The notes below the pieces were generated by a model. It saw only the letters and a list, made by a program, of their open reading frames with translations, was not told where the DNA came from and did no database searches. A program made the translations under genes and the position numbers. A DNA stretch of 64,000 nucleotides from Chlorobiota bacterium (GTDB lineage Bacteria; Bacteroidota; Ignavibacteria; Kapaibacteriales; UBA961): NCBI GenBank assembly GCA_014191195.1, contig BJGZ01000004.1, forward strand, positions 62,001-126,000. Direction: 5' to 3'. Of the stretch, positions 51,310 to 54,198 are shown piece after piece. Each line of letters starts with the position of its first letter. Positions within the stretch are counted from its first letter, which is position 1.

Positions 51310-53706
51310 TTAAAAATCTATTTCTGCACCAAAGATGATTGTTCTTCTTTGGCCAGGAAAAAATTCTTTGCCTTCTCCACCCGATGCATATAAAGTATCA
51401 AATATATTAATCGCTTGCATTTTAAGTCTTAATGCAGGTATTCCTATAGATATATTTTTATATTCATATTGAATGTCAATGCCAAAGACAGTATATGAAT
51501 CTACTGTATTATCTGTATAATATCCAGATAGGGAATTAGATAGATCTTCTTTAATTCTTGCATCGGTTCGAAGAAGATTACCAAAATTATCGGTATGAAA
51601 TCCTCCCATTATCTTAGAATGAATAGATAAGAAGGTGGAATTACTTCTAAAAGATATTCTTCCAAATCCAATAATGTCTGGAAACCCTGCTACAGTATTA
51701 TTATTGAGCGAAACTGCTTCTCCCTTTGCTGTATAATATGTATAATCAATAATTGTATTCTTACTATAGGTTAGATTACCAGCTAATTCCAAAGTATAGG
51801 ATTGTGAAATCATGAAAGATTTACTTAATTCTAATTCAATTCCCATATGATCTGTTCTTGGAGCATTACCATCTACAGGGACACCAAAGATGTCTAAACG
51901 CCCACTTTTTACTAATTCATTATAATAATTCATTACATATATAGTTATGCCCACATTAACATTATTGGATTGATATTTCCAACCTAATTCGGTATTAAGC
52001 ATATGTTCTGGCTTTACTAATGGATCAGAAAAATCGAAACCAATTTGTCCATTTGGTAATATTAACGATTTAAATAAAGGTCTAGCACCAAAATATGAGT
52101 CCTCTGCTGCATATAAATTCCTCATGCGTGGCTCTCTGGAGGTATAAGCTAATGAAAATGAAAATGTATTCTCTTCATCTGCTTTTAATACACTTCCTAT
52201 ACGAGGATTAAAAAAAAGATAGTTTTTTGAAAATAGTTGATTTCCATTTCCAATTGAACTGCCATTAATATCTACATAAGAAGTATAAGAATTACCTGCT
52301 TTTTCTTTAGAAATCCCATAAAGATGATGAACAAGTTGTGCTTCTGCTTTGATTGAGAATTTGTCTGATATATTCCATTCTTCTCTAGCAAAAGCCGATA
52401 GTATTCTTCTATGCCCTTGATATTCATACATGGTATAATCGGGGTCGAAACCAGATGGTAATTGTTCTGCATATCGAATCTTACCCCAATGAATAGAATT
52501 ATGTGATCGATATTCTGCTCCTAAGGTTAATACTCCTTTTTCATGTTCCCAAACAAGCCTTGGTATCCAGCCATATTGAGAATTTCCAACAAATCCACGT
52601 ATAAGAGCATTAGCTGGAATAATACTATCTTGAAATCCATATTCTGGCGTAATTCTTAATGTTGCAGCATCTGCCCAGGATGCGTCATAATCAAAGAAAC
52701 CTTCACCTGAATAATGAAATAATGTTGATTTTAATGATAGATGTTCACTTATGTGAATATCGTTAAGGATTTCAATATGCGGTTGCGAAAAATTCTCGAT
52801 TTCTTGTCTTCTTCGATTAGTAAACCATCCAACTGTTGCTCCAGATGAATCATAAGACCATCCATTTAGATTTTCTCTTTGTAATGATGGACTGTTTATC
52901 CATGATTTCGGTAGCCCTGTATATGCCAATGCATCTGATATTGGGCCACCATATACATTAATCTGACTTATACTTTTATCGTCAAATCGAGTTGCGCTTA
53001 AGAAATAACTTTGTAATGTACTATATGAGTGTTTTCTTGATCCAAGTGATTGTATAGAGGTTAATTTAGCATTAAAGGCATATTGTGATCCAATCAAACC
53101 ACTTTGAATATGTAAAGATGACTTAGTAATCGATGGATACCAAGTATCTTGATTATCATTATTACTAAATAATTGCTGAAATCCAATGAATTGCGATGCA
53201 GTTACTTTGTATTGTGAGGCCCCAGCTATTGTTTGAATATTGATACTTCCTGCCATTGCAGCAGAACCATAATTCATTAATCCTGCACCCCTTTGAACTT
53301 GAATAGATTCTGAGCTGGAGGCTATATCTGGAACATTAATCATATACACATTATGATCTTCTGGATCATTCTGTGGAACCCCATTAATCATTACCGATAT
53401 TCTTCTTTGGTCAAAACCCCTTAATGATATTGATGTATATCCAATATTATTTCCATTTTGTGTAACTGAGTATAAAGAGGGAAGTTCACTTAATACATGT
53501 CCTATGTCTAATGCAGAGTTTTTTTCTTGTATTTGCCCCGAGTTTAATTCAGAATATGTAACAGAAGATTGTACCTTTGCCAAAGTAGAACTAATAGAAA
53601 TACTTGGAGTTATATATACTCTTTTGTGTACTGAGTCATGCTGAATTTGTGCGAAAGCAGAAAAATGCGAGGCAATAAGCAAAGAAAAGATTAGAGCAAA
53701 TTTCAT
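51310..53706 (-). CDS. TonB-dependent receptor under TPP riboswitch, putative thiamine receptor
   Basis: 798 aa. The start was set at the ATG at 53706 because it opens a signal peptide (FALIFSLLIASHFSAFA); the frame from 53760 adds 18 residues and overlaps the expression platform. The plug region has DIGHVLSELPSLYSVTQ, SISLRGFDQRRISVMINGVPQ and SIQVQRGAGLMNYGSAAMAG. A long barrel ends in a final Phe (GAEIDF). There is no carboxypeptidase-like domain, unlike the other receptors here. A TPP riboswitch lies in its leader, so it is inferred to import thiamine or a precursor across the outer membrane. Confidence 0.92.
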   Translation of the reverse strand: MKFALIFSLLIASHFSAFAQIQHDSVHKRVYITPSISISSTLAKVQSSVTYSELNSGQIQEKNSALDIGHVLSELPSLYSVTQNGNNIGYTSISLRGFDQRRISVMINGVPQNDPEDHNVYMINVPDIASSSESIQVQRGAGLMNYGSAAMAGSINIQTIAGASQYKVTASQFIGFQQLFSNNDNQDTWYPSITKSSLHIQSGLIGSQYAFNAKLTSIQSLGSRKHSYSTLQSYFLSATRFDDKSISQINVYGGPISDALAYTGLPKSWINSPSLQRENLNGWSYDSSGATVGWFTNRRRQEIENFSQPHIEILNDIHISEHLSLKSTLFHYSGEGFFDYDASWADAATLRITPEYGFQDSIIPANALIRGFVGNSQYGWIPRLVWEHEKGVLTLGAEYRSHNSIHWGKIRYAEQLPSGFDPDYTMYEYQGHRRILSAFAREEWNISDKFSIKAEAQLVHHLYGISKEKAGNSYTSYVDINGSSIGNGNQLFSKNYLFFNPRIGSVLKADEENTFSFSLAYTSREPRMRNLYAAEDSYFGARPLFKSLILPNGQIGFDFSDPLVKPEHMLNTELGWKYQSNNVNVGITIYVMNYYNELVKSGRLDIFGVPVDGNAPRTDHMGIELELSKSFMISQSYTLELAGNLTYSKNTIIDYTYYTAKGEAVSLNNNTVAGFPDIIGFGRISFRSNSTFLSIHSKIMGGFHTDNFGNLLRTDARIKEDLSNSLSGYYTDNTVDSYTVFGIDIQYEYKNISIGIPALRLKMQAINIFDTLYASGGEGKEFFPGQRRTIIFGAEIDF

Positions 53707-53749
53707 GGTAAGAGCAGAATAAGTATATAAATAGTTATTCCGTAGAAGA

Positions 53750-53769
53750 TATTTCCACATTGGGAAATA
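53750..53769 (-). promoter_or_regulatory. hairpin in the expression platform of the TPP riboswitch
   Basis: TATTTCC (53750-53756) pairs with GGAAATA (53763-53769) over seven bases around a 6-base loop. It lies between the aptamer and the receptor ATG (about 45 bases) and could be the switching helix. There is no T tract, so regulation may be at translation or through another helix. Confidence 0.45.
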
Positions 53770-53781
53770 AGAGATATGAAT

Positions 53782-53857
53782 CGTTTTCCTACGCCAGTAT
53801 TAACTGGATCAGGTTCAAAGAGTATAATCTCAGCCGCATATATCGGCACCTCTAACG
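53782..53857 (-). promoter_or_regulatory. TPP (THI-box) riboswitch aptamer
   Basis: On the minus strand the conserved blocks of the THI box appear in order: GAGGTGCC, GGCTGAGA, CTTTGAACCTGATC, GTTAATACTGGCGTAGGAAA. P1 can form between CGTT at the 5' end and AACG at the 3' end. It precedes the TonB receptor at 51310-53706, so the receptor should be repressed when thiamine pyrophosphate is high. Confidence 0.95.
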
Positions 53858-53864
53858 GACAGAT

Positions 53865-53872
53865 CAAAACTA
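53865..53872 (-). promoter_or_regulatory. -7 promoter element for the riboswitch transcript
   Basis: TAGTTTTG on the minus strand matches TAnnTTTG fully. It would start transcription about eight bases before the P1 stem of the TPP aptamer. A clear -33 element is not seen. Confidence 0.5.
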
Positions 53873-53943
53873 AGAGATTTATTTGTAAACAGATACATTT
53901 TTATATAAAATCTGTAATTTATCTTATAAAAAAAGGAAATTAT

Positions 53944-54198
53944 ATGGAAATATTTATATGCCGCGGTTATTCTGGGCAAATTTATAGAATGAATGTAAAT
54001 GAACATTTACTGTTAAATGATATTATTCCAATCATTGCCGAGGGCATTGGTTTCTATACTTCTAATCAAGATAGAATTGGTATGTATAATCTTTCAAAAG
54101 ATTGGGAGTATTTACCTCAGGATTCCTTGATATCAAGGGGAACACAACAAGGAGATTTAATTATCTTAGCAGATGGTGGCACTTGCCATAAAGAATAA
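53944..54198 (+). CDS. ubiquitin-like beta-grasp protein ending in Gly-Gly plus five residues
   Basis: 84 aa. The ATG at 53944 follows GGAAA with normal spacing; longer frames run through the TPP aptamer and are rejected. The N-terminus MEIFICRGYSGQIYRMNVNE aligns by eye with ubiquitin's opening hairpin, a helix-like LLLNDIIPIIAEGIG follows, and a later IISRG-type turn and DLIILADGG end with Gly78-Gly79 and a tail TCHKE. Such folds include YukD/EsaB and bacterial ubiquitin-like (Bub/Bil) proteins; ThiS and MoaD also end in GG, but without a tail. No E1, E2 or deubiquitinase gene lies next to it, so the function is open. The lipoprotein starts four bases after its stop. Confidence 0.6.
   Translation: MEIFICRGYSGQIYRMNVNEHLLLNDIIPIIAEGIGFYTSNQDRIGMYNLSKDWEYLPQDSLISRGTQQGDLIILADGGTCHKE

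Follow-up and report, generated by a model that had tools for sequence, protein, structure and literature searches.

A TPP riboswitch preceding a predicted TonB-dependent thiamine receptor in a Kapabacteria-like order that appears to be thiamine-auxotrophic

What does a TonB-dependent receptor import when its gene stands behind a TPP riboswitch, and at which step would the riboswitch act? These questions were raised by a reverse-strand locus in a 64,000-nucleotide stretch of a Bacteroidota genome (hereafter, the window), for which a preliminary description had proposed a receptor for thiamine or a precursor. The comparisons described below make it very probable that a TPP-responsive OFF switch governs, at this locus, a gene encoding a TonB-dependent thiamine receptor of the outer membrane. 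Computation established the aptamer and the receptor family, the conservation of their linkage, the lack of biosynthesis genes, and the presence of the kinase and of a PnuC-family transporter; what the receptor imports and at which step it is regulated are inferred from these.

The claim of a well conserved THI box lying directly before the receptor gene, with a TAnnTTTG element of its own, was confirmed in each part. The Rfam TPP model RF00059 matched at E 6.5e-14 and covered all 105 model positions (1-105), with P1-P5 and the conserved core, and the score passed the gathering cut-off. The distance from the end of the aptamer model to the receptor ATG is 62 nt, placing the element in the leader of this thiamine-related gene. 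A search of the whole 2.41-Mb, 29-contig genome with the same model returned this copy only. Upstream of the aptamer is a Bacteroidota-type −7 promoter element, and the motif recurred in related loci: of 61, 28 have the exact TAnnTTTG 8-11 nt 5′ of the aptamer model and 31 carry it somewhere within −45 to +7, compared to 2.9% in shuffled sequence. A sigma-70 promoter scan gave results no better than the chance level. On the opposite strand, a listed open reading frame (53776-54198, +) overlaps the riboswitch; its true start is probably 53944, giving 84 aa, and it had no Pfam match.

Next, we analyzed the receptor. Its reading frame spans 53760 to 51310 (−), and translation most likely begins at 53706 rather than at the first in-frame ATG, 53760, because the signal peptide MKFALIFSLLIASHFSAFA|Q begins there and the preceding stretch is riboswitch leader; the ATG at 53760 falls inside a leader hairpin loop. 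Pfam identified a Plug domain (52.9 bits) and a TonB_dep_Rec_b-barrel domain (76 bits), both over the cut-off, and no others. The protein thus has no carboxypeptidase-like domain, as had been claimed, and this absence is uninformative on the substrate, because the domain does occur in TPP-linked homologues. The AlphaFold2 model built from 26 orthologues reached a pLDDT of 87 and a pTM of 0.84, and its top solved neighbor in Foldseek was PqqU (E 6.4e-41, TM 0.84 by target length). A PDB sequence search with the receptor gave no match. PqqU/YncD is the TonB-dependent receptor for the cofactor PQQ, yet the two proteins share 16% identity and the predicted substrate differs, and the fold by itself is insufficient to name what is imported. 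Three TonB_C proteins in the genome provide for TonB.

Features of the riboswitch-receptor locus and the partner genes of the window genome (window positions unless a genome and contig are given)
Feature	Position	Strand	Basis
Bacteroidota-type −7 promoter element TAGTTTTG (TAnnTTTG)	53865..53872	−	Sequence and motif counts in relatives
TPP riboswitch aptamer (THI element)	53769..53863	−	Full-length RF00059 match; score of 78.9 bits against a gathering cut-off of 54.3
Leader hairpin 1 (7-bp stem without a T tract), TATTTCC-CAATGT-GGAAATA	53750..53769	−	Fold
Anti-aptamer segment TATCTTCTACGGAA	53738..53751	−	Can pair with aptamer 5′ strand TCCGTTAGAGG
Leader hairpin 2 (CGGAATAA / TTATTCTG)	53715..53742	−	Fold and genus alignment
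TonB-dependent receptor (798 aa; predicted for thiamine) with signal peptide, plug, and beta-barrel	51310..53706	−	Pfam, AlphaFold2, Foldseek
PnuC/PnuT-type transporter	G000:C2:54744-55283		PF04973 member
Thiamine pyrophosphokinase	G000:C9:10855-11139		Family search

The linkage was then examined in 80 genomes, namely the window genome and 79 from the same genus, family, and order (completeness at least 90% in 73 of the 80; most relatives are drafts). The genomes belong to a Kapabacteria-like order; where orthologue records carry a name, it is in most cases Candidatus Kapaibacterium, Kapabacteria, Ignavibacteria, or that of an unplaced Bacteroidota MAG, and the closest orthologue is from Candidatus Kapaibacterium sp. 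MYJ.27 (90% identical). The TPP riboswitch was present in 76 genomes, in single copy save for one genome with two, and it headed a TonB receptor in 75 of these 76. The downstream gene was read in 60 plus 7 loci; for the others, the coordinates put the receptor directly downstream. Two receptor types, never both in one genome, follow the riboswitch: an orthologue of the window receptor in 58 genomes and a second type in 17. The second type is ~25% identical to the first (44-69% among those compared) and occurs in two genera of one family (g5 and g14) and in g11, from another family, where the first type is absent. To see whether orthologues keep the riboswitch, as the preliminary description had asked, loci were also gathered by protein similarity only (n = 80), and a covariance model made for this analysis was run on them. 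All 79 testable loci carried the riboswitch upstream on the same strand; the 80th (L033) begins within the receptor gene.

Several loci deserve separate mention. In two families, the second receptor type (L127, L126, L157, L158, L249-L254) occupies the position of the window type downstream of the riboswitch, and a carboxypeptidase-like domain was seen in that of G014. The one riboswitch-bearing genome without a TPP-linked receptor, G022, has both of its riboswitches before thiC, ~1.1 kb apart (L166, G022:C71:77211-88466). No conserved thiamine partner was found after the receptor in the window's order. In family f2, a small SET-domain-like protein lies 3′ of the receptor in 11 loci (L116, L127, L128, L155, L168, and others) and persists despite the change of receptor type.

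As for the substrate, ThiC was found in 1 of the 80 genomes (G022) and ThiE above its cut-off in that same genome only; none had a ThiN-type TMP synthase, and 77 had thiamine pyrophosphokinase (TPK). These absences carry the caveat of draft genomes; in 14 named genomes used as positive controls, ThiC was detected in 13 and ThiE in 11. The order therefore appears, from its gene content, to be thiamine-auxotrophic, with the single thiC/thiE genome as the exception. Since the kinase is present and TMP synthase absent, whole thiamine would be usable and its halves would not, and the substrate is likely thiamine itself rather than a precursor. The thiamine half of the original proposal thus gained support, also from operons in which receptor homologues occur with TPK, and the precursor half did not hold.

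The inner-membrane step was analyzed in the same genomes. Ignavibacteria-type records contributed 15 homologous loci with an operon of riboswitch, receptor, and TPK, in which the next gene encodes, by Pfam, an SSF sodium/solute symporter in nine and a PnuC/PnuT-family protein in five. In the window's order, the partner genes are scattered and the receptor only has retained the riboswitch. An order-wide search found the PnuC family in 27 of the 80 genomes and the SSF symporter in 49, both in none and neither in four, one of which bears thiC while the rest are 86-93% complete. Symporters were counted at 34-46% identity to the operon SSF and E below 1e-60; the next paralogues showed 24-29%. This exclusion gave Fisher p values of 2e-17 by genome and 1e-7 by genus, both uncorrected for descent. 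The split occurs within families f1 and f3, indicating that it was not one deep event. The SSF symporter is absent from the window genome. The question of whether a PnuT-type transporter exists there was answered by a candidate (Table), to which NCBIfam gives the label PnuC, the same label as for the PnuT-like protein in a TPP-TPK operon (L067). No NadR above the cut-off was found in the 80 genomes, which mildly favors a putative PnuT role over one in nicotinamide riboside uptake. The predicted PnuT assignment is thus supported by the SSF exclusivity together with the absence of NadR. By two independent signals, operon neighbors and mutual exclusion with PnuT, the SSF symporter (L076:8960-10396 and relatives) is a candidate thiamine symporter family. 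A TPK-adjacent gene in nine PnuC-less genomes had been considered as the missing inner-membrane transporter and was rejected; by eye, it encodes an esterase-like alpha/beta hydrolase. This hydrolase of ~243 aa adjoins TPK in nine SSF-using genomes (L196, L198, L201, L204-L208, L211).

Other substrates must be weighed against these data. Import of HMP or thiazole as a precursor, or of thiamine in phosphorylated form, would accord with the known control of precursor transporters by TPP riboswitches, and the SAR11 symporter ThiV, an SSF protein linked to a TPP riboswitch, carries HMP (PMC11452348). However, with ThiE missing from 79 of the 80 genomes and ThiN-type TMP synthase from all 80, precursors could not be joined, and the widespread TPK needs whole thiamine, so that we consider this reading quite improbable, although TMP or TPP might be taken up and dephosphorylated in the periplasm. 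The relatives' symporter resembles ThiV in its SSF family and its place in a thiamine regulon, and its conserved Phe-His (DPAFHQR) may provide a lead, as a similar Phe-His is reported in HMP/thiamine symporters. In contrast to ThiV, it stands behind TPK and the order's SSF carriers have no ThiE, therefore indicating thiamine rather than HMP. Still less credible is a siderophore- or cobalamin-type receptor that came to lie behind the riboswitch by chance. The best NCBIfam matches of the receptor are indeed siderophore-type subfamilies, every one far under its cut-off; however, the riboswitch linkage holds in every testable orthologue, homologues share an operon with TPK, a second receptor type substitutes under the same riboswitch, and the nearest fold, PqqU, is a receptor for a metal-free cofactor.

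The leader was then analyzed for the expression platform. The 7-bp hairpin without a T tract exists as described (hairpin 1), but the role of expression platform given to it was not sustained: in the alignment of the genus members examined, it is common only to the window genome and its nearest relative, G004. The conserved platform is located just downstream and consists of a pyrimidine-rich segment followed by ACGGA, plus hairpin 2, which begins at that CGGA. This anti-aptamer segment (CTTCTACGGA) resembles the 3′ strands of helices P2 and P1 in the aptamer and can therefore base-pair with the 5′ strand of the aptamer, TCCGTT(A/G)GAGG. Hairpin 2 ends 8 nt 5′ of the start codon, and its 5′ arm overlaps the anti-aptamer. 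All eight of its pairs are retained in six of six genus members, and at one pair both sides have changed (GC to AU).

Of 57 leaders from the order, 28 contained the anti-aptamer motif, compared to 2.3 expected from dinucleotide shuffles; it was mostly missing from the Ignavibacteria-type operon loci. A shorter test with a 12-nt anti-aptamer gave a mean z of −1.0; a longer aptamer strand and a reversed control were then used, and pairing across the leaders exceeded that control, although for the window genome by itself pairing was no better than chance (z −0.6). Own aptamer-leader pairs bound better than permuted ones when each genus was represented by a single genome (p 0.0014). Furthermore, in branches where the aptamer strand had changed to CCCGTGGGGG, the leader had changed to CCTCACGGA-like sequences. 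When the aptamer was enforced in the window RNA, the folds contained hairpin 2, and the start codon paired with UUCAU after P1; when the anti-aptamer was enforced, hairpin 2 was lost and the start region was open and single-stranded. No intrinsic terminator or T tract was found in the leader, and no Shine-Dalgarno sequence was visible in the leaders of the window genus; an SD-like stretch near the start was observed in 21 of 53 leaders of the order. The conserved anti-aptamer and the hairpin just before the start codon suggest an OFF switch acting at translation, and alternative pairing that masks or unmasks the translation start is a standard riboswitch scheme (PMC2258182).

We propose that the system would work as follows. 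When cellular TPP is low, the leader segment would pair with the aptamer 5′ strand, the start region would stay open, and the receptor would be produced. Using TonB energy, the receptor would pull thiamine into the periplasm, the PnuT-type transporter would carry it across the inner membrane, and TPK would phosphorylate it to TPP. Plentiful TPP would bind and close the aptamer, the anti-aptamer segment would fold into the start-proximal hairpin 2, and expression would drop. Translation is the likeliest step on the leader comparisons. The same receptor and substrate could also be combined with control of transcription, through Rho-dependent or pausing-based termination. This is unlikely in our judgment, since the leader contains nothing like a terminator site, the anti-aptamer overlaps the start-adjacent hairpin and its pairing leaves the start region single-stranded, and SD-like stretches do occur elsewhere in the order; on the other side, hairpin 2 is conserved and might act in pausing, and classical masking of a ribosome-binding site is not demonstrable in a genus with no visible Shine-Dalgarno sequence.

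The closest known system is that of Bacteroides thetaiotaomicron, in which TPP riboswitches precede the TonB receptor OMthi (BT2390), pnuT-tnr3, and a biosynthesis operon; the thiamine requirement rose when OMthi and biosynthesis were both deleted (PMC5613172). The window locus shows an OMthi-like arrangement in another lineage. The likeness to OMthi/PnuT/Tnr3 lies in the gene layout: a TPP riboswitch before a TonB receptor, with a PnuT-type (PnuC-family) transporter and TPK in the genome, and receptor homologues in related loci that share one operon with transporter and kinase. However, Bacteroides makes thiamine, whereas the window's order appears not to; the receptor alone is riboswitch-linked here, with the partner genes elsewhere; and more than half of the sampled order has the SSF symporter in place of PnuT. 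Compared to RF00059, the aptamer is typical, and only the expression platform differs, as a lineage-specific anti-aptamer and start-proximal hairpin. Transcripts of the TPP-linked OMthi and pnuT genes hardly changed with thiamine in B. thetaiotaomicron, and the authors of that study called the riboswitch mechanism in Bacteroidetes uncertain (PMC5613172). By analogy, the size of regulation is uncertain here too; such flat transcripts would fit translational control without demonstrating it.

Taken together, the first reading of the locus was right in substance, apart from the precursor option and the role of the 7-bp hairpin. As far as we searched, the literature did not contain the order-wide auxotrophy, the exchange of receptor type under one riboswitch, the PnuT/SSF exclusion with SSF in TPP operons, or the conserved anti-aptamer platform. 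We tentatively combine these observations, as a plausible but by no means assured whole, into a reading in which the Kapabacteria-like order would be obligately thiamine-dependent with one TPP riboswitch that controls an outer-membrane receptor and nothing else, translation would be regulated through the conserved anti-aptamer and the hairpin at the start codon, often without a Shine-Dalgarno sequence, and PnuT or a new SSF branch, as unrelated inner-membrane thiamine transporters, would interchange. The device itself is of a known kind, and the informative part is the conservation of the riboswitch across the order together with the inner-membrane partners. The locus offers a clean test case for TPP riboswitch action in Bacteroidota, and these results provide strong genomic evidence that nearly an entire, mostly uncultured order relies on scavenged vitamin B1, with the route indicated.
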